From positions 1 to 39,583 of the forward strand of contig CAJONI010000042.1 of NCBI GenBank assembly GCA_905235995.1: a stretch of DNA of 39,583 bases, given 5' to 3'. The translations under genes were made by a program, and so were the position numbers. Source of the stretch: an uncultured Bacteroidales bacterium. Lineage in GTDB: Bacteria > Bacteroidota > Bacteroidia > Bacteroidales > UBA932. The notes under the pieces were generated by a model, which had not been told where the DNA came from, searched no databases, and saw only the letters and a list, made by a program, of their open reading frames with translations. This document shows, piece after piece, positions 7,024-39,583 of the stretch (positions are counted from its first letter, which is position 1; the number at the start of each line of letters is the position of its first letter).

Positions 7024-8883
7024 CTAATTCCGGAAAAGGTGTTTGAATTCGTGCGCATAGAGCCGCGAGAGCCCTTCGCGATTGCCTATGGCCTCGCCAA
7101 CGACAAGCAATGTAGTGAGCGTCAGATTGTTTTCGCGCACTATCTTCGCCAGGTCGCGAAGCTCCCCGCGGTAGATCCTCTCCTCCTTCCAGGTCAGTTT
7201 GTAGCACGCAGCCACTGGCGTCTCAGGCGGATAAGCCTGCAGCAGCTCGGCCTGCACCTCCTCTACGATCCCGGCACTCAGATAGATGCACATCGTGCTC
7301 TGCGACTGCGCAAGCTTGTGGAGCTGCTCACGCTCAGGCATGGGCGTGCGCCCCTCACCGCGCGTCAGGATGATGGTCTGAACCTTTTCAGGAATGGTGA
7401 ACTGCGAACGCAAAGCCGCGGCAGCAGCCTGAAAAGCGCTGATACCCGGAGTGATATGGTAGTCCATCCTGTAGCGGTCGAAGAATGCCATCTGTTCCTG
7501 GATGGCACCGTAAAGGCAAGGGTCTCCGGTATGGAGCCGCACCACCAGCAGCCCACGGTCGTAGAATTCCTTCATAAGCGCGAACTGCTCCTCCAGGTCC
7601 ATGGAGGCAGAACTGCGCACCGTGCAGCCAGGCTTAGCATAATGCGTAAGTTCCACAGGCACAAGGCTGCCGGCGTAGAGGATGAGGTCGGCCTGCTCGA
7701 GGAAGCGCTTTCCGCGCACCGACACCAGTTCCGGATCGCCGGGGCCGGCGCCCACTATTTCAATGTGCCCCGCGCGAACCGTAGAAGCTTCCTGCGCAAG
7801 CGCGAAGGTAAAATCGTTGTCTTCAGTCAGTTTGCCCTTCTGCTTCTCGATCGGCAGCGGGCCTCCGTGGGAAGATGCCAGCGCCGCCGCCTCGGCCACT
7901 CCGGCACTTCCTGTGGCCTCGAGGGCCTTTTCTGAAGGGTTCGGGACATCGATGGCGGCAAGGGTCTCAGCGGAATGAATCTCATTATGCGCGTGGGGCC
8001 AGCGGGACAGAAGCGCCTCCAGCAGGGGTTCGTCTTTCTTGAGTTCGATGGTGCCTATGCTCGCGATGGACAGGGGCGAGAAGCCCGCCTCGTGCAGCTT
8101 TGCCTCGATGTGTTCCGGGATTCCTGCAGGGTCGCACTGTTTCCTGCAGCCGAAGCCGAGATGCAGCACAGGAGGGCGGTAGCTCAGCACAGGGAGGCTC
8201 TCCGGGAACTCCGGGAGCAGTCGGGGAGTCACTGCGATGAGCAGTTCAAAACCTTCAGGATCAAATGCCTCGCGGTTGTGGAAGACCTTGACATGCGAAG
8301 GGCAGGTACGTTCGAGGTAAGCTGTGCCGGGATCCTGCATTTCAAGCAGCAGGGCCGTGGGACGCCTGTTGACGAAGGCGAAGACGGCGCGGTTCATCAG
8401 CGCGGGCGTGGACTCGACCTGCCAGCCCATGCAGCGGTCGAGCACGTCGAGGGCCCAGAGGCCTTCGTTGTCGCTCTGGGTGCTGACTACGGCCGTGCCT
8501 CCGATATGGGCCGCGATGGCGCGGGCGAGGTCGTTGGCGCCGCCGACATGGCCGGAGACGACGGGAATCACGAATTTGCCGGTACTGTCGACGCAGACGA
8601 CGGCGGGGTCGCGATATTTATTCTTGAGCGCCGGAGCTATGCTGCGGACGCAGATGCCAAGCGCGCCGATGAAGATGACGGCGTCGAACTCTTCCCAATG
8701 CTGCTTCAGGTACGGCCCGTACGGCCCGATCTCATTTTTCGTAAATATGCGAACGCTTCGCTGCTCTGGTTTTTCGTCCCGCGGGCAGAAAAAATGCCCG
8801 CTGTCCGAAAAACCACCCGCAGCTACGCTTTCAGCCAGAGCCCGGGACGATTCTGAAACCAATATGATAGCTATGTTGCTCAT
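7024..8883 (-). CDS. cbiG/cbiF: CbiG-CbiF fusion: cobalt-precorrin-5A hydrolase / precorrin-4 C11-methyltransferase
   Basis: 619 residues. CbiG occupies about 1-310: IGALGICVRSIAP, VIPVVSGHVGGANDLARAIA and the C-terminal CobE/GbiG module (LHLGFGCRKQC, SIASIGTIELKKDE). After a low-complexity linker (about 315-370), CbiF/CobM begins at IEIVGAGPGDPELVSVRGKR and includes LHTGDPCLYGAIQEQM and HITPGISAFQAAAAAL, the SAM-binding uroporphyrin-III methyltransferase fold. CbiF methylates C11 and CbiG opens the lactone and releases acetaldehyde, so the fusion joins consecutive steps. Residues about 19-43 (GGFSDSGHFFCPRDEKPEQRS) are a family B repeat insertion. It overlaps cbiET by 4 bp. Confidence 0.93.
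   Translation of the reverse strand: MSNIAIILVSESSRALAESVAAGGFSDSGHFFCPRDEKPEQRSVRIFTKNEIGPYGPYLKQHWEEFDAVIFIGALGICVRSIAPALKNKYRDPAVVCVDSTGKFVIPVVSGHVGGANDLARAIAAHIGGTAVVSTQSDNEGLWALDVLDRCMGWQVESTPALMNRAVFAFVNRRPTALLLEMQDPGTAYLERTCPSHVKVFHNREAFDPEGFELLIAVTPRLLPEFPESLPVLSYRPPVLHLGFGCRKQCDPAGIPEHIEAKLHEAGFSPLSIASIGTIELKKDEPLLEALLSRWPHAHNEIHSAETLAAIDVPNPSEKALEATGSAGVAEAAALASSHGGPLPIEKQKGKLTEDNDFTFALAQEASTVRAGHIEIVGAGPGDPELVSVRGKRFLEQADLILYAGSLVPVELTHYAKPGCTVRSSASMDLEEQFALMKEFYDRGLLVVRLHTGDPCLYGAIQEQMAFFDRYRMDYHITPGISAFQAAAAALRSQFTIPEKVQTIILTRGEGRTPMPEREQLHKLAQSQSTMCIYLSAGIVEEVQAELLQAYPPETPVAACYKLTWKEERIYRGELRDLAKIVRENNLTLTTLLVVGEAIGNREGLSRLYAHEFKHLFRN
8754..8829 (-). repeat. Family B palindromic element, copy B1, inside cbiG
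   Basis: About 76 bp in sense orientation to the gene: left arm ending GCTGC, GGG, stem TGGTTTTTCG, apical stem GCGGGCA/TGCCCGC around a T-rich loop, stem CGAAAAACCA, GA, right arm GCAGC. In B1 the apical stem is perfectly paired. One of the six frames contains a stop; the coding frame is open. Confidence 0.8.
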
Positions 8884-10067
8884 TCTGCGCGGAATATCGT
8901 TATGGGATTAAAGTTGTCTACCGTAACGTGCATTTCACCGGTAATCCTGCGGCCGACGGCCGCGACTGCTTCGCGGAAGAGCGCCCGGCTCTGCTCGCTC
9001 ACGGCGTTGAAGACTATCACGCCGCCGGGAAGGAGTACTTCGTCGATGCGGCGGAGCATCTCGTGGAGGCGGCCGCCATGGCCGCCGATGAAGACGGCGT
9101 CGGGAGCCGGCAAGACTGAGAGATCAGCATCGAGGAAATCGCCGATGACGGTGTTGATGCCAGGGGCGCCGAACTTGCGGCTGTTGGCCTCCATCAGGGC
9201 GCGGCCCTGCTCACGGATTTCAAAAGACGTGACTTTCAGCTGCGGAAACTGCAGCCGGGCCTCGATCGATACGGAACCTGTGCAGAAGCCCACGTCCCAG
9301 AAGGACGAACGGCGCCGGAGCTCGAGCTGGCTTAGAGTCAGGAGCCTGACCGGCATCTTGGTGATCATGTTCACCCTTCCGTCGAGCAGTTCGAACTCCC
9401 GCTCCGGGATCCCGAAAGGATGTACGCGGGGCTGCGTCCTTTCCAGAATCAGGCAATTCGGAAAAGCAAATTCCTCAGCTGCAGCATCTTCCATGGAGAA
9501 GGTACGCACTCTTTCGGCCTCGCGGTTTCCGAGGCACTCCCCCACCGTCATCCTGTAGTTGCCGTAGCCGTAGTCGAGCATCCTGCGGGCGATCATGGCA
9601 GGGGTCTTCTGCCTGTCGGTCAGGGCGCCGATGAGCCTCTCGCCCCGGATCAGAGCCTCGTCGAAACCATCCCATGGGCGGCCGGTAAGCGAAACCGTCC
9701 GCATGTCCGAGTACGGCAGGAGCATCCGGTGCGCAAGCATCTGCAGGGAGTTGAAAGCCGGAAAGACAGTGATTTCCGCTTCGGGCAGCTCGCGCCTCAG
9801 CGTATTGGCGAAGCCGAAGAAGAGGGGGTCGCCGGAGGCGAAGACCACTATTTCAGAATGGGGCTTATATTGCTCGAACACAGCCTCCAACGGCACCGTG
9901 ATGTCGATCCATTCCGAAGCCTCCGGCAGCAGAGAGGCCACGATCTCGTGGTGGCGCTTCCCGCCGGAGAACACGCGGCCATCGGCGATTGCGGAGAGGA
10001 CCTCAGGAGGGAACCAGGCCTCGCGCTCGTCGGTCATGCCGATGACGATGAAGCGCTGCCTAGACAT
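8880..10067 (-). CDS. cbiET: CbiE-CbiT (CobL-type) precorrin-6Y/7 C5,15-methyltransferase
   Basis: 395 residues. The CbiE half (about 1-200) has the tetrapyrrole methylase fold (VVFASGDPLFFGFANTL, VFPAFNSLQMLAHRM). The CbiT half (about 210-395) is a class I SAM methyltransferase with WDVGFCTGSVSIEA as the SAM motif, then VIGDFLDADL and FIGGHGGRLHEMLRRI. Together they methylate C5 and C15 and decarboxylate the C12 acetate. The ATG overlaps the CbiH-CbiC stop by 8 bp and its end overlaps the next gene by 4 bp, so translation is probably coupled. The order CbiE then CbiT is as in CobL. Confidence 0.93.
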   Translation of the reverse strand: MSRQRFIVIGMTDEREAWFPPEVLSAIADGRVFSGGKRHHEIVASLLPEASEWIDITVPLEAVFEQYKPHSEIVVFASGDPLFFGFANTLRRELPEAEITVFPAFNSLQMLAHRMLLPYSDMRTVSLTGRPWDGFDEALIRGERLIGALTDRQKTPAMIARRMLDYGYGNYRMTVGECLGNREAERVRTFSMEDAAAEEFAFPNCLILERTQPRVHPFGIPEREFELLDGRVNMITKMPVRLLTLSQLELRRRSSFWDVGFCTGSVSIEARLQFPQLKVTSFEIREQGRALMEANSRKFGAPGINTVIGDFLDADLSVLPAPDAVFIGGHGGRLHEMLRRIDEVLLPGGVIVFNAVSEQSRALFREAVAAVGRRITGEMHVTVDNFNPITIFRAE

Positions 10068-11469
10068 CGCGTCCGGGTTTGAGCGCTTCCGCGTCGTTGA
10101 AACAGAGTATGGCGTTGACCAGCGTGGCGGCGAGGTTGCTGCCTCCCTTGCGGCCTTCCACTATGAGCTTAGGGATGTTCCTGAAGGGCTTGACCATGTG
10201 CTTGCTCTCACGCACATGCACGAAGCCCACGGGCGCTGCGATAATGCCGGAAGGGCAGGCTGCTCCTTTGCGTATCTGTTCGCAGAGCTCCATCAGTGCG
10301 GTGGGGGCGTTGCCGAAGGCGAAGAGTGCGTCGGGATGTTCCGCCACCGCCAGGCGGATGCCGGCCTGGGTGCGGGTGATTCCATCTTCGGCGGCCATCT
10401 CCGCCACGCGGGGGTCTGAGAGATAGCATCTTACCTCCACACCGAGGCGTTGCAGCGCGCCTTTGCGTATTCCCGAGGCGGCCATGGTCACATCGGTCAC
10501 TATGGTACTGATGCGGCCTTCGGCGAAGCCGGCGTAGAGCGTTTCCACTGCACCTTCGTCCACCTGCAGGATGTTTTCCATGTCGAAATCCGCGGTGGTG
10601 TGGATGGCGTGGAGCAGGGCCCACTTGCGTCCCAGCGGAATATCGGGGTTCCGGAGTTCCTTCTCTATGGTCCGGAAGCTTTCGATCATGATCTCCTGGC
10701 CTATGCCCTTCGCTTCGCCCGAAGCGGAACCGCGGTAGTAGCCACGCGGAGTAATGAACTTTCCTTCATGCACATAGGACTGGGAATTACCGATGAGCAC
10801 CACGGTAAACATGTCAATCTGCTCCGGATCGAAATCGCCCAGGGTAGTGAGGCTCACCTGCTCGCCTCCGCGGCCTGCCTGGCGTACGTAGCCCACCGGC
10901 GTGGAGGGGTCACGGTGCTGCAGGAAGATCTCCTGCAGGCGGTAGAGCTGCCAGTAGCGGCCGTGGCTGCGGGGATTGTAGACCGCCGTGATGAAATCGG
11001 CAGTGGCGGCTGCGACGATACGGCGCTCGATGGTCTCCCACGGGGTCATCAGGTCGGACAGGGAGATCAGGCAGAGGTCGTGGCCTATGGGGGCTCCGAG
11101 CAGCGATGCGGCTTTCTGGAAGGCGCTGATGCCGGGCAGCACTTCGATCCCGAGGTCGCCGCCACGCTCGCGCTGCATCTCCCAGATAAGGGGCGCCATG
11201 CCGTAGATGCCTGCGTCGCCGGAGCTTATCACGCACACTGTCCTCCCCTCCTCCGCCTGCGCGAAGGCTTCCTCGGCCCGTTCACGCTCTTTCTTCATGC
11301 CGGTATCGATACAGATCGTACCGGGCCGAAGGTAAGGCTCGACGAACTGAAAGTAATATTTGTAGCCGATGATCACATCGGACTGCCGGACGGCATCGAG
11401 CACCTCGGGAGTCACCTCGTCGGCGCCCCCCGGCCCGATCCCCGCCACGATTATCTTCGCTTTGCTCAT
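10060..11469 (-). CDS. cbiH/cbiC: CbiH-CbiC fusion: precorrin-3 C17-methyltransferase / precorrin-8 methylmutase
   Basis: 469 residues. CbiH/CobJ (about 1-245) shows IIVAGIGPGGADEVTPE, ISSGDAGIYGMAPLIWE, EVLPGISAFQKAASLLGAP and AVYNPRSHGR, the ring-contraction methyltransferase signature. CbiC/CobH (about 255-469) follows: MIESFRTIEKEL, LLHAIHTTADFDME (catalytic His), TDVTMAASGI and GIIAAPVGFVHVRESK. The two activities are the ring-contraction and the last methyl-migration steps, here joined head to tail. First gene of the minus-strand corrin operon; a -7 box lies only 6 bp upstream of the ATG. Confidence 0.93.
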   Translation of the reverse strand: MSKAKIIVAGIGPGGADEVTPEVLDAVRQSDVIIGYKYYFQFVEPYLRPGTICIDTGMKKERERAEEAFAQAEEGRTVCVISSGDAGIYGMAPLIWEMQRERGGDLGIEVLPGISAFQKAASLLGAPIGHDLCLISLSDLMTPWETIERRIVAAATADFITAVYNPRSHGRYWQLYRLQEIFLQHRDPSTPVGYVRQAGRGGEQVSLTTLGDFDPEQIDMFTVVLIGNSQSYVHEGKFITPRGYYRGSASGEAKGIGQEIMIESFRTIEKELRNPDIPLGRKWALLHAIHTTADFDMENILQVDEGAVETLYAGFAEGRISTIVTDVTMAASGIRKGALQRLGVEVRCYLSDPRVAEMAAEDGITRTQAGIRLAVAEHPDALFAFGNAPTALMELCEQIRKGAACPSGIIAAPVGFVHVRESKHMVKPFRNIPKLIVEGRKGGSNLAATLVNAILCFNDAEALKPGRDV

Positions 11470-11475
11470 AACTTA

Positions 11476-11483
11476 CAAAGATA
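11476..11483 (-). promoter_or_regulatory. -7 box of the corrin-ring operon
   Basis: TATCTTTG on the minus strand, 6 bp before the ATG at 11469. If the start site lies the usual few bases downstream, the mRNA is almost leaderless. No -33 TTG is apparent, and no riboswitch fits in the 47-bp gap. Confidence 0.6.
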
Positions 11484-11503
11484 ATAATTTACATTTTTAT
11501 TGC

Positions 11504-11511
11504 TAAATTTG
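11504..11511 (+). promoter_or_regulatory. -7 box of the adenosyltransferase operon
   Basis: TAAATTTG, five bases before the ATG at 11517; divergent to the box at 11476-11483. A very short leader is implied. Confidence 0.5.
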
Positions 11512-11516
11512 TGGTG

Positions 11517-12218
11517 ATGAAAAGGATTTACACACGGACAGGAGATGCGGGAACGACGGGCATCCACGGCGGGACCCGGGTGCCGAAAGACGACGCACGT
11601 ATCGAAGCCAACGGCGACCTCGACGAACTCAACTGCCAGATAGGGATCGTCCGCTCGATGCTGAGATGCCGGGTCAAGCCCGGCATGACGGAAGAGAGCG
11701 AGCCCGGCGGCGGGTGGTTTTTGGAGCCGCGAGCATTTTTCTGCGAGCGGGACAAAAACCAGAGCCGCCAGGCGAGCGAGACGAATGCCGAAGCCGTCCA
11801 GCGAGCATCCTTCGATGATATCCTTCGGATTGTCCAAACTAATCTCATGACGGTCATGAGCATCGTGGCTACACCGGCAGCCGAACGGGAGAAAAACCCC
11901 AACCAGCTGCCCGACAACCTCGTTGCCGACTGCGAACAGACAATAGATACCCTTACCGGACAGGCCGGCGAAGGACACCATTTCCTCCTGCCCGGCGGAA
12001 CCCCCATCGCCGCCCAGCTGCAGATGGCCCGCGCCATCTGCCGCCGCGCCGAACGCCGCCTCTGGACCCTCAACCGCCAGGACCCCCTCCCCGAAACCGT
12101 CCTGCAGTATGTCAACCGCCTCTCAGACCTTTTCTTCGTAATGGCCCGCTGCGAACTGGCCACCCGGGACTGGCCCGAAGAACGCTGGAAAGCCTTCGCC
12201 TATAAGAACCAGAAATGA
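11517..12218 (+). CDS. PduO-type ATP:cob(I)alamin adenosyltransferase
   Basis: 233 residues from the ATG at 11517 (two GTG codons just upstream are less likely). The family core is present: MKRIYTRTGDAGTTGI, RVPKDDARIEANGDLDELN, LPGGTPIAAQLQMARAICRRAERR and YVNRLSDLFFVMAR. It transfers the 5'-deoxyadenosyl group of ATP to cob(I)alamin or cobyrinate. The family is usually near 185-190 residues; the surplus is an insert at about 49-96 made of a family A palindrome (RVKPGM) and a family B element (GGGWFLEPRAFFCERDKNQSRQ), between the N-terminal helix and ILRIVQTNLM. The insert lies between conserved blocks, so activity is plausible but unproven. It overlaps cbiP by 4 bp. Confidence 0.92.
   Translation: MKRIYTRTGDAGTTGIHGGTRVPKDDARIEANGDLDELNCQIGIVRSMLRCRVKPGMTEESEPGGGWFLEPRAFFCERDKNQSRQASETNAEAVQRASFDDILRIVQTNLMTVMSIVATPAAEREKNPNQLPDNLVADCEQTIDTLTGQAGEGHHFLLPGGTPIAAQLQMARAICRRAERRLWTLNRQDPLPETVLQYVNRLSDLFFVMARCELATRDWPEERWKAFAYKNQK
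11666..11686. repeat. Family A palindrome in the adenosyltransferase gene
   Basis: ATGCCGGG (11666-11673), TCAAG, CCCGGCAT (11679-11686), followed by GACGG. It lies sense to the gene, encodes CRVKPGMT and sits 10 bp before a family B element. Confidence 0.75.
11697..11779 (+). repeat. Family B palindromic element, copy B2
   Basis: About 83 bp. Outer arms GGCGGC/GCCGCC; middle stem TGGTTTTTG (11715-11723) with CAAAAACCA (11753-11761); apical part CCGCGAGCATTTTTC then TGCGAGCGG. Free of stop codons in all six frames. It is read in frame as GGGWFLEPRAFFCERDKNQSR. Confidence 0.82.
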
Positions 12219-13708
12219 AAGAGAGGCTACATCCAGTGATGCTCGCCGGAACCGGCAGTGACGTGGGCAAGAGCGTGCTCGCCACCGCCCTCTGCCGCAT
12301 CTTCCGGCAGGACGGCTGGACTCCCGCCCCCTTCAAGGCCCAGAACATGGCCCTCAACTCCTTCGCGACCCCCGAAGGACTCGAAATAGGACGCGCACAG
12401 GCAGTACAGGCCGAAGCCGCAGGCATACCCTGCCATACCGACATGAATCCCCTGCTGCTCAAGCCCCAGAGCGACCACACATCGCAGGTGGTGCTCAACG
12501 GCAGGCCCATAGGCAAGCGCGACGCCTACGACTATTTCCGCAGGGAAGGCCGCGAAGAGCTGCGCGAAGCCGTTTATGCAGCCTACGACCGCCTCGCCTC
12601 ACGGCACAACCCCATAGTGATGGAAGGCGCCGGAAGCCTCGCGGAAATCAACCTCCGCGACTCCGACCTGGTGAACGTACCCATGGCCATGCATGCCGGA
12701 GCCGACATCATCCTCGTGGGCGACATCGACCGCGGCGGCGTGTTCGCCAGCGTCTACGGCTCGGTGATGCTCCTGCCGCCCGAAGAGCGCAAATACGTCA
12801 AGGGCATACTGATCAACAAGTTCCGAGGCGACCTGCGTCTCTTCGAAGAAGGCCGGAAGATGCTCGAGGAGCTCTGCGGCATCCCCGTGCTGGGCGTGAT
12901 CCCCTACTTCCACGACATCCACATCGAGGAGGAGGATTCCGTGGCCCTGGCCGCCAAGAGCGCAGCGGCGCAGAGAGGCAAGGTCAACGTGGCGGTGGTG
13001 CTCCTGCGTCACATCAGCAACTTCACCGACTTCAACTCACTGGAGCGCGACCCGCGTATCCATCTGTTCTACAGCAACAACGTGGAAGAGATAGGCAAGG
13101 CCGACATCATCATCATCCCCGGCAGCAAGAGCACCCTCGCCGACCTGCACGAACTCCGCCGCAACGGCGTGGCCCAGGCGATACTGAGGGCAAGGCGCGA
13201 AGGAGCCACAGTGCTGGGAATCTGCGGCGGCTACCAGATGATGGGGATGCAGGTACGAGACCCGCACCACGTGGAGGGCGACATAGAGGCCATGCCAGGG
13301 CTCGGGCTGCTGCCCATGGTCACGGAGATGCTCGGCGAAAAGGTGACCCGCCAGGTGCGCTTCACCCTGGCCGACGGTAGCGGACCCGTGATGGAGGGCT
13401 ACGAGATACATATGGGCGAAACCCTGCCTGCAGATGGAAGCAGCGTCAGCCCGCTGGCCCGCCTGGAGGACGGAAAACCTGACGGCTGCCGAGTCGATGA
13501 GAAATGCATGGGAACCTATCTCCACGGCATACTCGACAACCCCGGCTTCGTCGGCACGCTCCTCGCCCCGCACGGCGCAAAATTCTCAGGATCCGCCACT
13601 TTCGACTACCACTCCTTCAAGGAGGAGCAGTACGACCTCCTGGCCGACCACTTCCGCCGCCACGTCGACATGGCGAAGCTCTACGAAATACTCTGTTCTT
13701 CCCGGTAG
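12215..13708 (+). CDS. cbiP: Cobyric acid synthase
   Basis: 497 residues, the usual length for CbiP/CobQ. The N-terminal ATP-dependent domain has GTGSDVGKSVLATALCRIF (P-loop about 12-20), FKAQNMALNS and VMEGAGSLAEINL. The C-terminal class I glutamine amidotransferase domain has IIIPGSKSTLADL, the nucleophile GICGGYQMMG and the late YLHGILDN. It amidates side chains b, d, e and g of adenosylcobyrinate a,c-diamide, which fits its position directly after the adenosyltransferase with an ATGA overlap. Its 3' end overlaps the convergent HD gene by 28 bp. Confidence 0.96.
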   Translation: MKERLHPVMLAGTGSDVGKSVLATALCRIFRQDGWTPAPFKAQNMALNSFATPEGLEIGRAQAVQAEAAGIPCHTDMNPLLLKPQSDHTSQVVLNGRPIGKRDAYDYFRREGREELREAVYAAYDRLASRHNPIVMEGAGSLAEINLRDSDLVNVPMAMHAGADIILVGDIDRGGVFASVYGSVMLLPPEERKYVKGILINKFRGDLRLFEEGRKMLEELCGIPVLGVIPYFHDIHIEEEDSVALAAKSAAAQRGKVNVAVVLLRHISNFTDFNSLERDPRIHLFYSNNVEEIGKADIIIIPGSKSTLADLHELRRNGVAQAILRARREGATVLGICGGYQMMGMQVRDPHHVEGDIEAMPGLGLLPMVTEMLGEKVTRQVRFTLADGSGPVMEGYEIHMGETLPADGSSVSPLARLEDGKPDGCRVDEKCMGTYLHGILDNPGFVGTLLAPHGAKFSGSATFDYHSFKEEQYDLLADHFRRHVDMAKLYEILCSSR

Positions 13709-14325: not shown

Positions 14326-15356
14326 TGCTCCGCTACGAAGGGTTTGAGCCCTTTCACGGCGTCCGCGACGCTGATCTCCACGCCCCCGTTGTCGAGGTCG
14401 ATGAGCTTGTAGCGGTCGTGGCCCATGCCGAGTTCCTTCATGTAGCTGAGCTGGCGAAGGCCGTGGCGGGATTCGATGCGCTCCACAAGGTCGTGGTGCT
14501 CCTCGGCGGTCATGGCGTAGACGAGGTCGACGCAGGCCTGGTCGATGGCGAGGATGTCGGTCGATGAGAGTATGCCCACGTTGGGGGTCACAACCGGCTC
14601 GGCAAGAACGCCCTCGCAGTCGCAGGACACTGACATGTTGCGCATTACGTTGACATAGGTCACTCTGTTGCCGAAGTGGTCGATGGTGGCCTTGGTGCTT
14701 TCTGTCATGCGTTCCATGAACTCCTCCTCCACGATGTCCCACTGGTCGGGCTGACCGGGATGTGTGTGTATCCATGACTTGCCGAGATGGCCGTCGGCGC
14801 AGCCTATGCCTATGTTCTTGTTGCTGCCGCCGAACCCGCCGTTGGTGTGCCCCTTGAAGTGCGTGAGGGCCACCATGGAGTCGTAGTTCATCAGATGCGA
14901 GCCGACCGACATCTGCTTGAACCATTTGCCGCCATTCACGGGAAGGCATACGTTTCCTTCCTCGTCCAGGATGTCAACGGGGCAGAAGGTCCAGCCGTTG
15001 ACCTCTATGGTCTTGCGGTGCAGGGCCGTGGTGGAACGGTCGCCTTCGTAGTAGGTGTTGGTCTCGATGATGGTCGCTTCGGGAATGTCCTTCTCGAAAA
15101 GGGCCTTCACCCAGGGCCGCGGGATGATGTTCGGGCCGTTCTGCTCCCCGGTATGGAGTTTGACGCCCACTTTTCCGGTAATCGCGCCGTTGACCTTCTC
15201 ATAGGCCTTGATCAGGCCTTCGGGGGAAAGGTCGCGGGTGAAATAGACTATTGCTTCGTCGCCGAGGCGCCTGTCGTAGGAAACGTACTTATTACCGTCG
15301 GTCCCCGGGACCGGGGCAGCTGTCTTCTTGCTGGCTTTGTGTCCGCTTATTATCAT
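14322..15356 (-). CDS. DUF362 domain protein
   Basis: 344 residues. Typical DUF362 features are the metal- or substrate-binding region VGVKLHTGEQNGPNIIP, a long conserved centre ALTHFKGHTNGGFGGSNKNIGIG and CADGHLGKSWIHTHPG, and SVSCDCEG followed by a DILAIDQACVDLVY segment. No clear 4Fe-4S ferredoxin motif is present, unlike many longer relatives. There is no obvious signal peptide. The family has no firm biochemical role. It is the first gene of a two-gene unit with the HD hydrolase and is divergent from cobD. A -7 box lies 26 bp upstream. Confidence 0.8.
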   Translation of the reverse strand: MIISGHKASKKTAAPVPGTDGNKYVSYDRRLGDEAIVYFTRDLSPEGLIKAYEKVNGAITGKVGVKLHTGEQNGPNIIPRPWVKALFEKDIPEATIIETNTYYEGDRSTTALHRKTIEVNGWTFCPVDILDEEGNVCLPVNGGKWFKQMSVGSHLMNYDSMVALTHFKGHTNGGFGGSNKNIGIGCADGHLGKSWIHTHPGQPDQWDIVEEEFMERMTESTKATIDHFGNRVTYVNVMRNMSVSCDCEGVLAEPVVTPNVGILSSTDILAIDQACVDLVYAMTAEEHHDLVERIESRHGLRQLSYMKELGMGHDRYKLIDLDNGGVEISVADAVKGLKPFVAEQ

Positions 15357-15382
15357 GGCAGAGGAAGGATTATGGTTATATG

Positions 15383-15390
15383 CAAATATA
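15383..15390 (-). promoter_or_regulatory. -7 box of the DUF362/HD operon
   Basis: TATATTTG on the minus strand, 26 bp before the ATG at 15356. No convincing -33 element. Confidence 0.5.
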
Positions 15391-15419
15391 AGAAATAATC
15401 CTTATGACGGGGAAATTGT

Positions 15420-15427
15420 TAATTTTG
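15420..15427 (+). promoter_or_regulatory. -7 box of the cobD-cbiB operon
   Basis: TAATTTTG, 11 bp before the ATG at 15439. This short leader supports that start over earlier in-frame ATGs, which lie upstream of the box. Confidence 0.55.
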
Positions 15428-15438
15428 CACAAAAAAAG

Positions 15439-16512
15439 ATGATCCAGGGACACGGGGACGATGCTTACCGGTATGGACGGGAGATACGGGCGAACTTCAG
15501 TTCGAACGTATACCGGCATGTCGACCTCGGTCCGCTCAAGGAGCATCTTGCCGCGCAGCTCGACGCCATCGGAAACTATCCCGAGCCTGAGCCTTACACC
15601 CTGGAAACCGCTATCGCCCGCATGGAGGACGTCCCGACGGAAGCCGTCTGCGCCACCGCCGGCGCCACCGAAGCCATCTATCTCATAGCCCACGCCTTCC
15701 AAGGGTCCAATTCCAAGATCATCGGACCCACTTTCAGCGAATACGCCGATGCGTGTAGATTGTTCGCTCATTCCGCAGCTCTGGTTTTGAATAGCGAGCC
15801 CCGCGGCGGGTGGTATCCGGCGAGCGAGCATTTTTCTGCGAGCGAGACGGATACCAGAGCCGCCGGGCGAGCGATGGTCTGGTTGTGCAATCCCAACAAT
15901 CCAGACGGGAGAGTCATTGCCAAGTCAGATCTGATGGCGGCAATCGAGAAGCATCCGGAGACGGTCTTTGTCATCGACCAGTCCTACGGATCCTTTACAC
16001 AGGAAGCCCTGATGACCGCCAGGGAAGCGGCCGCCCATCAGAATGTAATACAATTGCATTCGATGACAAAACGCTACGCCATCCCGGGCCTGAGGCTCGG
16101 ATATGTTGTGGCCAATCCGAATATAATCAAGAAGATACGCCAGGTCCGCATGCCCTGGAGCGTGAACGCCATGGCCATCGAAGCAGGACTGTACCTCTGC
16201 GGACATCCCGATACCGCCCCCATCGACCTTCCGGCCCTGCTCTCAGAAGCAAAACGCCTCCGCAGCAGACTGGAAGCCATCCCCGGAATCAGAGTTGTAC
16301 CTACGGACACCCATTTCATGCTCTGCCGCCTCGCTGAAGGCCGCGCCAAGGAGTTGAAAGACTGGCTCGCACACGAACACGGCATCCTGATCCGTGACGC
16401 CTCGAACTTTGAAGGGCTCGACGAAGGCTGCTTCCGCATCGCAGCCCAGACAACGGAGCAAAACGACACCCTCGCAGAAGCCATCAAGGCATGGCAGGAG
16501 GCACATCGATGA
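15439..16512 (+). CDS. cobD: L-threonine-O-3-phosphate decarboxylase-like PLP enzyme
   Basis: 357 residues from the ATG at 15439. A fold-type I PLP enzyme of the histidinol-phosphate aminotransferase branch: ANFSSNVY at the substrate entry, TAGATEAIYLIAHAF, WLCNPNNPDGRV, VIDQSYGSF, the Schiff-base lysine in HSMTKRYAIPGLRLGY (Lys211) and a late FRIAAQT. Its place directly before cbiB, with a 4-bp overlap, points to CobD, which makes aminopropanol phosphate, rather than HisC. Residues about 118-144 (SEPRGGWYPASEHFSASETD..) are a family B insertion just before the conserved WLCNPNNP strand. Confidence 0.88.
   Translation: MIQGHGDDAYRYGREIRANFSSNVYRHVDLGPLKEHLAAQLDAIGNYPEPEPYTLETAIARMEDVPTEAVCATAGATEAIYLIAHAFQGSNSKIIGPTFSEYADACRLFAHSAALVLNSEPRGGWYPASEHFSASETDTRAAGRAMVWLCNPNNPDGRVIAKSDLMAAIEKHPETVFVIDQSYGSFTQEALMTAREAAAHQNVIQLHSMTKRYAIPGLRLGYVVANPNIIKKIRQVRMPWSVNAMAIEAGLYLCGHPDTAPIDLPALLSEAKRLRSRLEAIPGIRVVPTDTHFMLCRLAEGRAKELKDWLAHEHGILIRDASNFEGLDEGCFRIAAQTTEQNDTLAEAIKAWQEAHR
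15793..15874 (+). repeat. Family B palindromic element, copy B3, inside cobD
   Basis: About 82 bp. Middle stem TGGTATCCG with CGGATACCA, different from B2 but still fully complementary; outer arms GCGGC/GCCGC; apical GCGAGCATTTTTCTGCGAGC. Open in all six frames and read in the same frame as B2. Confidence 0.82.
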
Positions 16513-18792: not shown

Positions 18793-18800
18793 TATCTTTG
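18793..18800 (+). promoter_or_regulatory. -7 box of the riboswitch-btuB-cbiK transcript
   Basis: TATCTTTG immediately upstream of the riboswitch, so transcription would start at or near its 5' end. Confidence 0.65.
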
Positions 18801-18803
18801 CAT

Positions 18804-19006
18804 CGGTTTTGGTAACCGGCAATTTTTAGGCCGGTGCAAGGGAACCCGGTGAAAGGCCGGGGCTGTTCCTGCAGCTGTGATCCCCGCAAGGGGCCTGTTT
18901 CCAAACGCCACTGGGCGCATCGCTCCACCCTTCTGCAGGGCCCGGAGAGTTGCAGGGCCCGGGAAGGCGGAGCAGGCCGGGGAAAGCCAGAAGACCTGCC
19001 TGAACC
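18804..19006 (+). promoter_or_regulatory. Cobalamin riboswitch
   Basis: The leader carries the conserved parts of the adenosylcobalamin riboswitch in order: GCCGGTGCAAGGGAACCCGG then TGAAAGGCCGGGGCTG, GCAGCTGTGATCC, and the B12 box GCCAGAAGACCTGCC (18986-19000). The variable region between holds further GC-rich hairpins. Downstream, before the chosen ATG, a small hairpin CCCGCT/AGCGGG (19020-19039) may be part of the expression platform. Corrinoid binding would be expected to lower expression of the receptor and CbiK lipoprotein. End points are approximate. It is the only such element seen in the window. Confidence 0.93.
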
Positions 19007-19046
19007 CATAAAAATGAAGCCCGCTCAGGAACAAGCGGGGCCGATT

Positions 19047-33264: not shown

Positions 33265-33270
33265 GGGATG

Positions 33271-33302
33271 CAAAGATACACATTAATTCAATATCCGCAA
33301 AA
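33271..33302 (-). promoter_or_regulatory. Promoter of rplU-rpmA
   Basis: On the minus strand TTTTG, 19 bp, then TATCTTTG (33271-33278): the best full consensus promoter in the window, as expected for ribosomal genes. The rest of 33173-33308 shows no gene. Confidence 0.75.
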
Positions 33303-33308
33303 CTTTTT

Positions 33309-34505
33309 TCATTTTCTTCCCGGATAGACTTCCAGGGCTTTGGCGAGGCAGACCAGGGCGGCGCGTAGGTCTTCTTCCTTGAGGACGTAGGCCAGGCGGA
33401 TCTGGTTGCGGCCCAGGCCGGGCGTGGCGTAGAAGCCGGCCATCGGGGCCACCATGACCGTGGCGCCATTGTAGCTGAAGTCTTCCAGCAGCCACCTGGC
33501 GAACACTTCAGTGTCGTCGACAGGCAGCTCGACGGCAGCATAGAAAGCACCCATGGGGCGAGGAGCCACAACTCCGGGAATCTTCTGCAGCCCGTCGATC
33601 AGCACGTCGCGGCGATGTATGTATTCGTCGCGAACCGCCTTGAAATAGGAAGCCGGCGCCGAGAGCGCTCCCTCAGCCGCAATCTGTCCGTAGGCCGGCG
33701 AGCAGAGGCGCGCCTGGGCATAGCGCATGACGGCCTCCATCACCTCCCTGTTGCGCGACACCACGAAGCCGATGCGCGCCCCGCAGAGGCTGTAGCGCTT
33801 CGATACGCTGTCGATCAGGATCACGTTCTGCTCCAGGCCGGGGATGTGCATGCAGGAGAAGTGCGGTGCGTCGGTGTAGCAGAATTCGCGGTACACCTCG
33901 TCGGCATAAACGTACAGGCCGTATTTTTTGGCTATCTCCCCCAATTCAAGCAGCGACTCCTTCGTGTAGAGGCAGCCCGTCGGATTGCCCGGGTTGCAGA
34001 TCACGACGCCCCTGGTCCGGGACGTGATGCGCTTCTCCACCTCCCGCATGGGCGGCAGCGCGAAGCCGTCCCCGATGTGCGTGGTGATGGGCACCAGCTT
34101 CACGTCGTTCTGCACTGCGAAACTGTTGTAGTTGGTGTAGAAAGGCTCGAAGACTATGACCTCGTCCTCAGGGTCGCAGGTCACCGAGAGAGCGATCTGC
34201 AGCGCCTCGCTGCCACCGTTGGTTATGTTGATGTCCGCCGCCTGAACCTCGATCCCTATGCCCTGGTAGTAGCGGGCGAGGCCTTCGCGCAGAGAATCCA
34301 CACCGCCGCTCTTGGCATATTCAACCACTTTCAACTTGTTGTTCCTCACGGCAGCCAGCGCCTCTTCCGGCGACTCGATGTCGGGCTGGCCTATGTTCAG
34401 ATGGTAGACCTTGACGCCCCGTTTCTTGGCAGCGTCAGCGAAGGGGACGAGCTTGCGTATGGGAGAAGCCTGGATTGCATGGGCTTTGCGTGAAAGGGTG
34501 AGCAT
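33309..34505 (-). CDS. Class I PLP-dependent aminotransferase
   Basis: 398 residues, fold-type I subgroup Igamma-like, as in aspartate or aromatic aminotransferases. Motifs are IQASPIRKLVPFADAAKKRG, YHLNIGQPDIESP, VICNPGNPTGCLY (171-177), YADEVYREFCY (Asp202, Tyr205), the PLP lysine in DSVSKRYSLCGARIGF (Lys236) and the late NQIRLAYV. A cytoplasmic transaminase of amino-acid metabolism; substrate not decidable by eye. It lies 23 bp after the PBP4 gene on the same strand, so it may be co-transcribed. Confidence 0.9.
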   Translation of the reverse strand: MLTLSRKAHAIQASPIRKLVPFADAAKKRGVKVYHLNIGQPDIESPEEALAAVRNNKLKVVEYAKSGGVDSLREGLARYYQGIGIEVQAADINITNGGSEALQIALSVTCDPEDEVIVFEPFYTNYNSFAVQNDVKLVPITTHIGDGFALPPMREVEKRITSRTRGVVICNPGNPTGCLYTKESLLELGEIAKKYGLYVYADEVYREFCYTDAPHFSCMHIPGLEQNVILIDSVSKRYSLCGARIGFVVSRNREVMEAVMRYAQARLCSPAYGQIAAEGALSAPASYFKAVRDEYIHRRDVLIDGLQKIPGVVAPRPMGAFYAAVELPVDDTEVFARWLLEDFSYNGATVMVAPMAGFYATPGLGRNQIRLAYVLKEEDLRAALVCLAKALEVYPGRK

Positions 34506-34528
34506 TTATCTATGTTTTTGGTTATGAA

Positions 34529-36028
34529 TCAAAGAGATGCCGCGTAACGTGCGAGTTCCTCCATGAAGCCTTCGATCTTGGGCTGGACCTTGCGCGAGGG
34601 GCAGTCGTAATGGTTGACCAGTATTGCGAAACGCAGCGGGCCGTCGGGAGAGTCGACGTAGCCGGCATAGCAGCGGACCCCGCTGAGCGAACCGCTCTTG
34701 GCGTGTATGGAGCGCTTGAGCGCAGGGTCGGCCTTGGGAAGGACATACTGCAGGGTGCCGCGGCGTCCTGGGCCGGGGAAACAATCCAGGTAGGTCTGGA
34801 AACCGGGCCGGGTGGCCATCCAACCATAGAAGCGCGTGAGGAAGCGGGGCGACAGGCAGTCCTCGCGGGACAGCCCGCTGCCGTCGTCCTGGATGTAGCC
34901 GCGCGTCGACACCCCCTGCCCCTGAAGAAAGGCCTTGACCGCGGCGCGGGCCATGTCGTATGTCACCTCGCCGCAGGGCTCGTCCTGGTTCTCTTCGACG
35001 AGCTCCCGCCCCACCATCTTGAAGATGGTCTCGGCGTAGAAGTTGTTGCTGATCGCGAGCATCTCTTCCACTATCAGCCTGAGTTCGGGAGAAAAGGTTT
35101 CCACGAGCACTTCCATGTCTTCCTGAGCAGGCACGAAATAGGATGAGGCCATGTGGCGCACGTCGGTGGCCCCTTTGCTGTTCACTCCCGCTTCCTGCAG
35201 GAAGAGAGCGAATTCCGCGGCGCAGGCGGCAGGGCCGTATTTGTTCGACATCGCCACCGTACGGGGTGCGGCGTCTATGCCGAAAGTCCCGGACATCCTG
35301 CCCACGGGCGCGAGCGCAGAGGCATGGTACACCAGCTTGTCGCCGGAACCCCGCGGGCCGGTCACCGCCTCGTTGCGGTAAGTGATGTAGGGGGCCTGGG
35401 GGCCGGCGGGCGTGATGCGCACAGGATCGCCCACTGCCGCGCCGGGAGCTATGTCGAAATAGGTGAGATTCTCGCAGAACGACAGGCCGGAAGCTCCGCT
35501 GCCGTAGTCCCAGCCGATATCGTCGAACACCCAGTTGGGGTGGATGGATTCTTCGGCGAAGATGCGGTCGTCGCCCACCACGCTGCCGTCGATGCGGCGT
35601 ATGCCCGCCTTGCTTACGGCCTGCGCCCAGATGCCGAAGATAGAATCGAGGGGATAGGCTATGGTGTCGAGTGAACCGAGGGTCGGGTCGGCCCCGCCGA
35701 CGATGTAGAGGTTGCCATGGAGCACTCCGTCCTCGATATGGCCGTCGTGCGCCACGCGGGTGGAGAAACGGTAATCAGCGCCCAGAACCTCGAAGGCCAG
35801 GCCTGCGGTGACGGTCTTCATGGTCGAGGCCGGAAGCAGGGGCAGGTCGGCGTTCCATTCCGCGATCTCCCGTCCGTCGGCATCGACGGCCAGTACACCC
35901 ACTATGGCGTTGGTGAACAGGGTATCGGTCTTCAGCTGGCGGTCTATGTAGTTCTGCACGCGGTTCTGCGCCGCGCCCGAAAGGCAGCACAGAAGAAGCA
36001 GCGACAGTGACAGAAAAGAGTTTCTCAT
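34529..36028 (-). CDS. dacB: PBP4-type D-Ala-D-Ala carboxypeptidase/endopeptidase
   Basis: 499 residues from the ATG at 36028 (an ATG at 36052 overlaps the -7 box). Signal peptide about 1-20. Peptidase family S13 motifs are complete: SxxK in PASTMKT (Ser68, Lys71), SxN in AISNNFYAE, and KSG in HAKSGSLSG, with the large insert between the first two motifs that defines PBP4. It trims or cleaves peptidoglycan cross-links in the periplasm. It is divergent from the racemase-like lipoprotein; the promoters are back to back. Confidence 0.93.
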   Translation of the reverse strand: MRNSFLSLSLLLLCCLSGAAQNRVQNYIDRQLKTDTLFTNAIVGVLAVDADGREIAEWNADLPLLPASTMKTVTAGLAFEVLGADYRFSTRVAHDGHIEDGVLHGNLYIVGGADPTLGSLDTIAYPLDSIFGIWAQAVSKAGIRRIDGSVVGDDRIFAEESIHPNWVFDDIGWDYGSGASGLSFCENLTYFDIAPGAAVGDPVRITPAGPQAPYITYRNEAVTGPRGSGDKLVYHASALAPVGRMSGTFGIDAAPRTVAMSNKYGPAACAAEFALFLQEAGVNSKGATDVRHMASSYFVPAQEDMEVLVETFSPELRLIVEEMLAISNNFYAETIFKMVGRELVEENQDEPCGEVTYDMARAAVKAFLQGQGVSTRGYIQDDGSGLSREDCLSPRFLTRFYGWMATRPGFQTYLDCFPGPGRRGTLQYVLPKADPALKRSIHAKSGSLSGVRCYAGYVDSPDGPLRFAILVNHYDCPSRKVQPKIEGFMEELARYAASL

Positions 36029-36049
36029 CCTGACAGGCAATAGTTTCGA

Positions 36050-36057
36050 CAAATTTA
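36050..36057 (-). promoter_or_regulatory. -7 box of dacB
   Basis: TAAATTTG on the minus strand, 21 bp before the ATG at 36028. Confidence 0.5.
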
Positions 36058-36058
36058 G

Positions 36059-36066
36059 TAATTTTG
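36059..36066 (+). promoter_or_regulatory. -7 box of the racemase-like gene
   Basis: TAATTTTG, 19 bp before the ATG at 36086 and one base from the dacB box on the other strand, so polymerases could compete for the site. Confidence 0.5.
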
Positions 36067-36085
36067 CATTTTAAACGGAAAAAAT

Positions 36086-37588
36086 ATGAAATACAGGTCC
36101 CCTCTCACCGGTGTTTCCGTCGTCATGGCGCTGATGCTCGTGTTTGCGTCCGGCTGCCACAGGACAGAGATGCCCAACGGCAACCTGCCTATCGTCAACA
36201 AGGCGCTCTACGACACGGCTTCCAATTTCTACGTTGGGTTCGACGGATATCCGGAGGATCTCCGTTCGCTGCCCATCGGCATCTTCGATTCCGGCAACGG
36301 CGGACTTGCCCTGCTGGAGACCCTGCTCACCATCGACGCCTTCGACAACATCACAGGCTCTACCAAACGCGACAGCATACGCGACTTTGCCGGAGAGCAC
36401 TTCATCTACCTGGCCGACATGGCCAATATGCCCTACTCCAACTACATCAAGGAGGACAATGAAGCCTACCTGCAGGAACTGACCATCAAGGGCGCCCTCT
36501 TCCTGACCGGCGACGACTATTTCACAGACCCCATAGAAGAAATCCCCTCCGGGAAGAAGCCCCGGGTCAAGATCATATTGATGGCCAGCCATACGAACGC
36601 CAATTCCGCCATCGACCCCATACGTTCGATGCTGGCCCAGAGCGGCAAGGACATCAAACTCATCGAAGTGGTGGGAGCGGGTGTCAGCGCCGCGGTCGAG
36701 GAGCTGGAGACGCTCAACCCCGACGGGCCCTTCACCATAGGAATCCTGGCGACCCCCGAGACCATAGCCTCAGAAGTCTACGAACAGTCGCTGACGCGCG
36801 CCATCGCATCGCGCGGTCACCAGTGGAAGGTGTCGGTAATCAATCAGGAAGTGCACGACTTCGCCGAACCGACCGACAACGACGAAGATTTCGTCAATCC
36901 CCTGCTCTTCGCCCCCCGCAGCACCTACCGCGGTCCCGTGCTGGGTGAGACCTTGGGCGACATACGCCCCAGCCTGCTAAGCGCCTACAACTTCGACTTC
37001 TCCGGAAACAACATGCTTGCCCGCCGCCGCCCCGACGGCAACTACGACGCACTGCAGCTCAACAGCACTGAGAACTACGTCCGTTTCAGCATCGTGACAC
37101 TCCTTGAAAGAATCCGCCGCAGCGAGAACCCGTCCGCCCTGCGCTCCATCATCCTGGGCTGCCCCCAGTATTCATTGCATCTGGAAACGCTTCGCCAGAT
37201 CCTCGCCGAACTGCGGGAATACCGCGTCGACGGCCGCTACCCCTATCGCGACCTCATCGCCGAGGAGGTGTCGTTCATCGACCCGACCATCCATGCCGCG
37301 ATAGCGTGCTACCGCACCCTGCGCGAAGACAGGAACCTGGCCTTCCGCATAACCCCCACTGAGCTCGACGCCTTCATCACCGTGCCCAGCAAACTGCTTG
37401 AAGACGCCAACCTCAACAAGGACGGAGGCCTGTCCTATTCATACAAATACAACCGGCAGACCGGGACCGAAGCCTTGACCACCAAGGCCGTCCACCTGTC
37501 GAAAGGCGGCATCAGCGACGACAACATGCAGCGGATCGGAGAACTCTTCCCGGTCAGCTACTCACTGATCGCCACTTCGCTCAAATAG
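36086..37588 (+). CDS. Glutamate-racemase-like lipoprotein with altered active site
   Basis: 500 residues with an SPII signal (VFASGC, Cys24). The body follows the Asp/Glu racemase (MurI) order: IGIFDSGNGGLALLETLL (64-81), YLADMANMPYSNY (108-120), IILMASHTNANSA (163-175), VVGAGVSAAVE (195-204), IILGCPQYSLHLETL (355-369) and SFIDPTIHAA. MurI normally has cysteines in ACNTAS and LGCTHY; here the first site reads ASHTNANS with no cysteine (Ser168), and Cys359 remains but its partner His is Gln361. It is longer than MurI (about 260-270), with inserts. Cytoplasmic racemase activity is unlikely. A binding or other role in the envelope is possible. Confidence 0.72.
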   Translation: MKYRSPLTGVSVVMALMLVFASGCHRTEMPNGNLPIVNKALYDTASNFYVGFDGYPEDLRSLPIGIFDSGNGGLALLETLLTIDAFDNITGSTKRDSIRDFAGEHFIYLADMANMPYSNYIKEDNEAYLQELTIKGALFLTGDDYFTDPIEEIPSGKKPRVKIILMASHTNANSAIDPIRSMLAQSGKDIKLIEVVGAGVSAAVEELETLNPDGPFTIGILATPETIASEVYEQSLTRAIASRGHQWKVSVINQEVHDFAEPTDNDEDFVNPLLFAPRSTYRGPVLGETLGDIRPSLLSAYNFDFSGNNMLARRRPDGNYDALQLNSTENYVRFSIVTLLERIRRSENPSALRSIILGCPQYSLHLETLRQILAELREYRVDGRYPYRDLIAEEVSFIDPTIHAAIACYRTLREDRNLAFRITPTELDAFITVPSKLLEDANLNKDGGLSYSYKYNRQTGTEALTTKAVHLSKGGISDDNMQRIGELFPVSYSLIATSLK

Positions 37589-37593
37589 ATTTC

Positions 37594-38181
37594 ATGTACC
37601 AGGAGACCATCACGCCCGAAGAGATAGAACAACTCGAACTGGCTGCTTTCCCCGGCAGGATCCACGTGATCACTGAACCGGGGCCCACGCTCGACCACGC
37701 CATAGAACATCTTTCATCCCAGCGCCTCATAGGCTTCGACACCGAGACCAAACCGGTGTTCCAGGCCCACCAGCCCCGTCACGACACGGCCCTGCTGCAG
37801 CTCTCCAGCGAGACCGAGGCCTTCCTCTTCCGTCTGCAGATGCTGGGGCTCCCGCAGGAAATCGCCGAAATCATGGCAAGTCCGTACATCACCAAGATAG
37901 GAGCCGCAGTAGGCGAGGACATCCGCGGCCTGCAGCATTACCTCCCCTTCCAGCCCCATCGCTTCATGGACCTGCAGCATTTCGCAGAGCAGTACGGCAT
38001 CCAGGAAAAGAGCGTCAGGAAGATGGCCGCCATCATCCTGGGCTGCAAGGTATCAAAGGCACAGCAGTGCTCCAACTGGGAGGCGGAGCCCCTCTCCGAC
38101 GCTCAGGTGCTCTACGCCGCCACCGATGCGTGGATCTGCGTAAGGATGTACAAGGCTCTTCTCTCGACTCCACGACCATGA
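37594..38181 (+). CDS. DEDDy-type 3'-5' exonuclease domain protein
   Basis: 195 residues comprising one RNase D/WRN-like exonuclease domain: Exo I GFDTETKP (Asp49, Glu51), Exo II GAAVGEDIRGL (Asp109) and Exo III YAATDAWICVRMY (Tyr174 and Asp178, spacing of DEDDy). There is no HRDC domain, so it is shorter than RNase D. It should act on RNA or DNA 3' ends in the cytoplasm. It starts 5 bp after the racemase-like gene and overlaps rlmI by 4 bp. Confidence 0.9.
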   Translation: MYQETITPEEIEQLELAAFPGRIHVITEPGPTLDHAIEHLSSQRLIGFDTETKPVFQAHQPRHDTALLQLSSETEAFLFRLQMLGLPQEIAEIMASPYITKIGAAVGEDIRGLQHYLPFQPHRFMDLQHFAEQYGIQEKSVRKMAAIILGCKVSKAQQCSNWEAEPLSDAQVLYAATDAWICVRMYKALLSTPRP

Positions 38182-39389
38182 CACGACTCTATCTCAAGAA
38201 AGGACGCGACGAATCGCTGCGGCGCTTCCACCCCTGGGTCTTCTCGGGGGCCATAGGCGGCATAGAAGGCCCCGACCCCGCCGAGGGCGACGCCGTGGAA
38301 GTGTTTTCGGCCCAGAAGGCCTTCCTTGGCTGGGGCCACTACCAGATAGGATCGATCGCCGTGCGCATGCTCAGCTTCGCCGACGACATGCCCTCCGGCG
38401 GTCCGGACGTCGCGTTCTGGACGCGCCGCCTGCAGGCCTGCCTCGACGCACGCCGGGCCTTTTCCCTTGCCGGGGCTTCGAATACCACCTGCTACCGTCT
38501 CGTTCATGGGGAAGGCGACTTCCTGCCAGGCCTGATAGTCGACTGGTACGACGGCTGCTGCGTGCTGCAGGCCCATTCCGTGGGCATGTTCCGCGCCCTG
38601 CCCCAGCTGACCGAGGCTCTCCGCACCGTCTACGGACCGGCCCTGAAAGCGGTCTACGACAAGAGTTCCGGCACCGCTCCCTTCAAGGCGGGACTCGACC
38701 TGGCCGACGGCTATCTATGGCAGGCTCCAGGGCAGGCGGCCCTCTGCCCGCGCACGGTGCTGGAAAACGGGCACAGCTTCCTGGTGGACTGGGAGAACGG
38801 GCAGAAGACGGGTTTTTTCCTCGACCAGAGGGACAATCGCGCCCGTGTCGAGAGCTATGCCAGGGGCCGTAGGGTGCTCAATCTTTTCTGCTATACCGGC
38901 GGCTTCAGCGTCTACGCCCTTGCGGGCGGTGCCGTCAGCGTCGATTCTGTCGACAGCTCGGCACGGGCCATTGAAATGGCCGGCCGCAACGTCGAGCTCA
39001 ACTTCGGGCCGGACGCACCCCACAGGGCCCTTTGCACCGACGCCATCGATTTCGTCAAACAGACCGAGCCCGGGGCTTACGACCTTATGATAGTCGACCC
39101 TCCGGCCTTCGCCAAGCATCGCGGCGCCCTCGCCGGAGCTTTGCGGGCCTACCAGCGGCTCAACGCCGCCGCCATCTCGGCCGTCGCCCCCGGCGGACTG
39201 GTGTTCACCTTCAGCTGTTCGCAGGTGGTCGACCGGGAAGCCTTCGCACTGGCGGTATTCAGCGCAGCCGCCGATGCCAGGCGGGAGGTCAGGATACTCG
39301 ACCGCGTGGGCCAGGGCGCCGACCATCCGGTCAACATCTTCCATCCGGAAGGATCATACCTCAAGGGGCTGGTCCTCTATGTTGAATAA
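38178..39389 (+). CDS. rlmI: RlmI-type 23S rRNA (cytosine-C5) methyltransferase
   Basis: 403 residues from the ATG at 38178 (ATGA overlap). An N-terminal PUA domain (RLYLKKGRDESLRRFHPWVF) precedes a class I SAM methyltransferase: LVHGEGDFLPGLIVDWY, ENGQKTGFFLDQRDNR, VLNLFCYTGGFSVYAL for SAM binding, DLMIVDPPAFAK, and FTFSCSQVV holding the catalytic cysteine motif. The length agrees with RlmI/YccW, which makes m5C1962 in 23S rRNA in E. coli. Confidence 0.92.
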   Translation: MTRLYLKKGRDESLRRFHPWVFSGAIGGIEGPDPAEGDAVEVFSAQKAFLGWGHYQIGSIAVRMLSFADDMPSGGPDVAFWTRRLQACLDARRAFSLAGASNTTCYRLVHGEGDFLPGLIVDWYDGCCVLQAHSVGMFRALPQLTEALRTVYGPALKAVYDKSSGTAPFKAGLDLADGYLWQAPGQAALCPRTVLENGHSFLVDWENGQKTGFFLDQRDNRARVESYARGRRVLNLFCYTGGFSVYALAGGAVSVDSVDSSARAIEMAGRNVELNFGPDAPHRALCTDAIDFVKQTEPGAYDLMIVDPPAFAKHRGALAGALRAYQRLNAAAISAVAPGGLVFTFSCSQVVDREAFALAVFSAAADARREVRILDRVGQGADHPVNIFHPEGSYLKGLVLYVE

Positions 39390-39583
39390 TCCTTTCTGCT
39401 ACATCCCCTCCCCTTCCGTCGTCGAAGCCGCCCGCGCCCTGACCGCCCGCATCGACGCGACACCGTCACTGCGCTCTGTATTCGTTGAAGGCAAGATGCT
39501 GGGAATAATGGAAGTGGAAGCGAGCGACACGGCGGGTGGTGTTCGGAGCCGCGAGCTTTTTTTGCGAGCGGGACGAACACCAG
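39379..39583 (+). CDS. RluA-like pseudouridine synthase, N-terminal part only
   Basis: The first 68 codons are visible: MLNNPFCYIPSPSVVEAARA, then SVFVEGKMLGIMEVEASD. The FCY-P-P-VEAA and GKM-G opening resembles the extended RluA-family synthases of Bacteroidota. The start overlaps the rlmI stop by 11 bp. Codons from about 47 on are a family B element, in frame, still running at the window edge. The catalytic domain is not visible, so the assignment is tentative. Confidence 0.55.
   Translation, partial: MLNNPFCYIPSPSVVEAARALTARIDATPSLRSVFVEGKMLGIMEVEASDTAGGVRSRELFLRAGRTP
39519..39583 (+). repeat. Family B palindromic element, copy B4 (cut by window end)
   Basis: Left arm ACGGCGGG, stem TGGTGTTCG, apical part with a T-rich loop, stem CGAACACCA, then the window ends. 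All visible frames are open. It is read in the same frame as B1 and sense to its host gene. Confidence 0.8.

Follow-up and report, generated by a model that had tools for sequence, protein, structure and literature searches.

The palindromic elements of Rickettsia (RPEs) and of Wolbachia lie both inside and outside genes, and passages of the papers describing them report that the genic copies are read in frame and occupy exposed parts of the protein, and that the elements found near a given place can differ between orthologues (PMC3767692, PMC2229807, PMC10969869). For RPE-4, RPE-6 and RPE-7, the relevant passage leaves open whether such places are hotspot loops or hold one old insert that has since diverged (PMC3767692). 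A second kind, the repetitive extragenic palindromes (REPs), is described in part of a further source as short and mostly intergenic, with some intragenic copies, with dimers and G/A mispairs in some families, and with a CGTC-type REP in Bacteroidetes (PMC3733652). The bacterial MITEs, such as ERIC/RU-1, Correia/NEMIS, RUP and YPAL, are small and non-autonomous, give rise to long stem-loop transcripts, and in some cases are fused in frame to ORFs, according to the section that treats them (PMC2229807). Here we describe family B, a set of dispersed imperfect hairpins of about 85-94 bp (covariance-model match lengths in the copies used), which was noticed as four repeats within genes of an uncultured Bacteroidales bacterium.

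Four Copies in One Window

The window, the whole stretch of 39,583 nucleotides analysed here, contains all four family B copies of the original prediction, each of which is recovered by a covariance model trained on 22 copies from the same genome (Table 1). Open frames run through the first three copies in sense orientation; the first host carries the Pfam domains CbiG_N, CbiG_C and TP_methylase, and the third is a CobD-like aminotransferase. The ORF around the fourth copy, only putatively the RluA-like gene of the original prediction, has no Pfam match across its 68 available residues, and its homologues in 26 other genomes of the genus match only up to residues 47-56, while the element begins at residue 46, approximately where this homology stops. 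In a 27th genome (G008) the match is confined to the element part, and in G004 an antisense family B copy overlaps the homologue of the same ORF. The contig end falls inside this copy, as would happen if assembly had stopped at the repeat.

Table 1. Palindromic elements and a riboswitch located in the window.
Feature	Position	Strand	Context	Basis
Family B copy 1	8746..8835	-	Inside cbiG, ORF 7024-8883 (-), sense to gene	Covariance model
Family B copy 2	11695..11782	+	Cobalamin adenosyltransferase gene, ORF 11511-12218 (+), sense	Covariance model
Family B copy 3	15791..15877	+	cobD-like gene, ORF 15328-16512 (+), sense	Covariance model
Family B copy 4	39517..39583	+	Within ORF starting at 39379; cut by contig end	Covariance model
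Family A palindrome	11665..11690	+	Directly upstream of copy 2, same adenosyltransferase loop	Core at 11679
Family A palindrome	5226..5267
Family A palindrome	6669..6733
Cobalamin riboswitch	18793..19017			98.9 bits

Two other palindrome families were seen alongside. Family A, with the core CCCGGCATGAC present four times in the window, resembles by eye the CGTC-type REP as depicted in the part of PMC3733652 used for the comparison, and also occurs in protein loops of relatives. A third family, with the core CACCAGGCC, lies in protein loops of several species, in the HI0933-like gene (L312, L314, L319, L320) and in cobD (L120-L123), and some of its members have perfect arms of 12-14 bp.

Restriction to One Genus

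A pattern search of the genome that carries the window (1.96 Mb in 78 contigs, 88% complete) gave 25 matches, a count that by itself proves little because a reversed-pattern control gave 13; 22 were judged real from their sequence and three (L017, L021, L025) were dropped. The covariance-model search that had been proposed as a check revealed a dispersed family, with 34 matches in this genome at E<=0.1, of which the best has 9.4e-30 and three are short fragments at the ends of contigs. Among 61 relatives, 19 genomes match, every one inside the genus, and none of the 24 genomes from other families of the order in this set does. Within the genus, 20 of 40 genomes carry family B, with 338 matches summed and between 0 and 53 copies per member. 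In an order-wide sample of 393 genomes the original genome is the sole match, with none among the 392 others, a sample in which weak copies may be missed because 11 candidates were scored per genome. An exact-pattern scan of a genome contig collection returned 31 stretches from ten Bacteroidales/Bacteroidia MAGs and from no other taxa, and the titles of five of these ten MAGs name ruminants (sheep, goat, red deer or water buffalo). In these samples family B is restricted to the genus. Carriage by phage was considered and rejected, the exact pattern having 0 matches in a viral contig collection.

Genic and Intergenic Copies

For a census of location, 141 copies were retained from 151 rows after ten same-place repeats and overlong weak matches had been dropped, a few repeated places remaining; the set was drawn from the best-scoring matches, namely 31 of the 34 in the original genome and 110 others, out of the 338 in the genus. 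A hexamer coding score trained on the fetched loci, for which the values of true and false windows overlap, placed 43 of the 141 copies inside genes and 98 not, and it missed four copies that are genic by homology (window 8746, window 39517, L067 and L218). The 43 gene-internal copies fall into 20 host clusters, with 27 called sense and 16 antisense (the strand call of L071 is wrong). The original prediction had every copy genic, in sense and none between genes, which is true inside the window and does not extend to the family at large. In the original genome, seven of the 31 census copies scored as gene-internal, two of them antisense (L043, L054), and the copies at window 8746 and 39517 are added by homology; for the other census copies of this genome, apart from the ambiguous L053 and L056, the score finds no coding frame running through them. 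Ten hosts were scanned, belonging to the DnaX, HI0933-like, HHH, WbqC, Fer4, ABC-F-like, GH88, FGGY kinase, radical-SAM/TRAM and HydF families. In several species, differing family B copies lie outside genes at apparently one position upstream of a single gene (L070, L079, L082, L222, L257).

A Hairpin Conserved as Structure

The copies fold into one long hairpin with a GGG/GA internal loop, a T-rich terminal loop and conserved G/A mismatches. Covariation was measured in 131 copies, with the register fixed solely by the GG[GA] and GA motifs; ten motif-less copies, identical copies and copies lying too close to the end of a contig were excluded, and the shuffles from which the expectations derive ignore the relatedness of the copies. 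Position 5 is paired in 127 of 131 copies against 58.6 expected (the highest of 300 shuffles being 73), with three pair types, and position -3 in 102 of 131 against 48.3. The 40 gene-internal copies behave alike, with position 5 paired in 38 of them against 17.9 expected. Several positions have no pairing excess (e.g., 6, -9 and -10) because variation there is slight or pairing absent. Among the same 131 copies, mismatches are conserved as well (G/A in 86 at -8, A/G in 74 at -6 and G/A in 76 at 10), and therefore the arms are not merely kept identical. A long imperfect hairpin is conserved as structure, with compensatory changes in its stem. RNAalifold recovers only 14 pairs from the 22-copy alignment because the inner stems differ in length. 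The copies also contain fewer stops than their dinucleotide shuffles, with 4.69 of six frames open per copy against 3.68 (131 copies), and therefore allow read-through of several frames in either orientation.

Strong structural covariation is what a functional RNA element would display, and the hairpin could be a terminator, an attenuator or a processing hairpin kept intergenically, with the genic copies as by-products. T.G pairs outnumber C.A pairs (41 vs 8 in the lists of pairs at positions 1-9), as would fit a role for one strand as RNA or as single-stranded DNA, and the occupation of one upstream site in several species points the same way. This account is nevertheless unlikely to hold for the family, given the share of census copies scored genic, in both orientations, the range of copy number among genus members, and a search of the window and four loci against Rfam in which no family reached the gathering score at the element, the one match below the cut-off being to mir-138 on one element (25.2 vs 50 bits).

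The Same Protein Loops in Different Species

The cobD loop that holds the third window copy is occupied differently from species to species. Family B lies there in sense in one frame in G000, G028 and G032 and in another frame in G011 and G023, and in antisense in G004 and G008, while the remaining species have other palindromes, remnants (G027, G034) or nothing. In the HI0933-like gene, for which 25 of 26 loci were inspected, the corresponding loop contains family B in sense in G001, G004, G008 and G024, in antisense in G000 and as a remnant, recognised by eye, in G007; in G015, G018, G023 and G063 it contains a palindrome with the CACCAGGCC core instead, in G027 a CGTC-REP-like sequence that is degenerate in G028, G033 and G036 (a loose tag plus inspection by eye), and in other species no insert. 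In both DnaX and the FGGY kinase, opposite family B orientations are found at one loop. These four genes differ by species in presence, orientation or frame, and therefore insertion recurs at preferred loops. In an AlphaFold2 model of the window CobD (14-sequence alignment), the insert is predicted as a low-confidence loop at residues about 151-180, flanked by strands 149-153 and 182-187, and in the best solved homologue, 3fkd, the aligned loop is shorter at the insert position.

Not every copy in the same loop needs to be independent, and some may descend from one insertion. The cobD copies of G000, G028 and G032 may represent one shared old insertion, having the same 5' frame and similar borders, and so may the adenosyltransferase copies of G000, G004, G008, G024 and G034 by the same signs; if so, the stems of such copies would either have changed in matched fashion or undergone conversion. 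In the adenosyltransferase, G000 and G008 have the same 5' frame and only G023 differs, and the copy common to G004 and G024 has decayed in G004 (50.6 vs 67.9 bits). In the same loops of cobD and the adenosyltransferase in G007 (L136, L151), a further palindrome seems to be enclosed by family-B-like outer ends, and in G027 the adenosyltransferase orthologue (L169) is split across two frames in tblastn, which may be real or an assembly error.

It might be supposed that all such copies are ancient insertions, inherited vertically and since diverged, with opposite orientations arising by inversion in place and with no recurrent insertion at all. The shared borders and 5' frames just mentioned are in its favour, as are the remnants in cobD and in the HI0933-like gene, but it has to contend with the frame of G023, which is shifted relative to G000 in both cobD and the adenosyltransferase, with unrelated palindromes that occupy the same loop, and with identical 55-bp cores that recur at several loci of one genome, where their flanks differ (e.g., L004, L005 and L016). 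We regard descent without recurrent insertion as improbable, somewhat more so than the functional RNA. That a conserved protein domain or motif has been mistaken for a repeat found no support and can be dismissed, being contradicted by the occurrence of the same DNA outside genes, in both orientations and in several frames, and by orthologues that do not have the segment.

The alignment of host orthologues bears out the expectation that the element is missing from many of them within the genus, and the 3fkd comparison gives no sign of distant orthologues with the same residues at the same positions. In these respects the proposal of a palindromic family that enters Bacteroidota proteins in frame is supported, and its further remark, that a Bacteroidota family with these properties is not known, agrees with the open-access literature searched, in which we found no precedent for protein-invading palindromes in this phylum.

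Arms Matched to the Insertion Site

Some family B copies have longer outer arms. Perfect outer arms of at least 6 bp are present in 15 of 126 copies, against 1.0 expected from arms exchanged among the copies, an excess of which part may be subfamily sequence because several arms are alike (TTTTGC-like). In the HI0933-like gene, the left arm consists of native coding DNA (codons for R-[IML]-x-R-[ED], also present in species free of the element), and the right arm repeats it perfectly as the reverse complement over 10 bp in G001, 11 bp in G004 and 11 bp in G008, the arms in each case matching their own species. In G063 the palindrome, which is unrelated, has an arm of 14 bp, and 6 nt of the same native codons are included in it. 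Tentatively, these sequences could mean that the host flank is copied in inverted form onto the far side of the hairpin, either at insertion or in a later template switch, so that the palindrome would grow into the target codons. The site-matched arms, together with loops that several palindrome families have entered repeatedly, suggest a fold-back, single-strand route of insertion; for fold-back copying the suggestion comes from one site, the HI0933-like gene, where shared descent with matched changes is the alternative.

Mode of Spread

On the whole, we consider family B to be probably a non-autonomous, genus-restricted palindromic repeat that has been dispersed by copying and is tolerated between genes and in the loops and linkers of proteins. 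Such a repeat would move by way of a single-stranded hairpin and a trans-acting enzyme that recognises it; the surviving genic copies would be those that landed in frame in a permissive loop, and would mostly be neutral and free to decay. A benefit to the host is unnecessary to account for the data. Against this reading stand the Y1 loci free of the element and the missing general target-site duplication (both below), the possible common descent of some same-loop copies, and, for the covariation, shuffles that disregard relatedness and several positions with no excess. Inversion of a palindrome in place could also yield pairs of sense and antisense copies without a new insertion, and the shared upstream site could be a sign of function there.

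The traces of movement itself include one clear pair of filled and empty sites (L246 vs L093), with a 6-bp repeat seen by eye, and adjacent inverted pairs of family B (L264). No general excess of target-site duplication was found, a repeat of at least 6 bp being present in 8 of 136 copies against 7.7 expected. A RAYT/Y1 transposase was considered as the mobilising enzyme and is unsupported, for none of 21 Y1 transposase loci of the genus (of 68 listed) has a family B model match at E<=10. Y1_Tnp is matched at E<=0.001 in 19 of the 20 genomes of the genus that bear the element and in 8 of the 20 that are free of it, an association that is not probative because it is confounded by kinship and genome completeness. 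Several Y1 transposase genes (L283, L286, L288, L290, L292) are flanked by palindromes of their own, unlike family B, and one in the original genome (L026) lies, by eye, between two direct repeats of about 110 bp with a palindrome inside them.

Palindromes that invade proteins are familiar above all in Rickettsia and Wolbachia, and are now also found in one gut Bacteroidales genus, which offers dozens of species for comparison. Since orientation, frame and palindrome family differ at the same loop, hotspots with repeated insertion are favoured for at least some genes. The annotation of this group should also take into account that repeat-encoded segments sit in core proteins such as DnaX.

Comparison With Known Repeats

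Like the MITEs, family B is a small, non-autonomous repeat, whereas it is without their general target-site duplication. The closest known kinds are the RPEs of Rickettsia and the intragenic REPs, and family B is assigned to neither because the size tests and the test for Y1 flanks failed, the separation from RPEs being one of description. Like the REPs, family B is a palindrome that lies mostly between genes and in part inside them, and it has G/A mismatches. The GTAG and CGTC REPs are given in the literature as 20-40 bp long and ending in an unpaired GTAG or CGTC, and family B differs from them in its greater length and its several internal loops; GTAG is present in many of its copies, but within the outer part of the longer hairpin, and unlike the GTAG REP/RAYT system, family B does not flank Y1 transposase genes at the 21 genus loci. 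With the RPEs it has in common that it is palindromic, is read in frame inside ORFs and also occurs outside genes, while it comes from another phylum and measures 85-94 bp against 100-150 bp. Further compared with RPEs, in family B sense, antisense and frame vary between species at one and the same loop.
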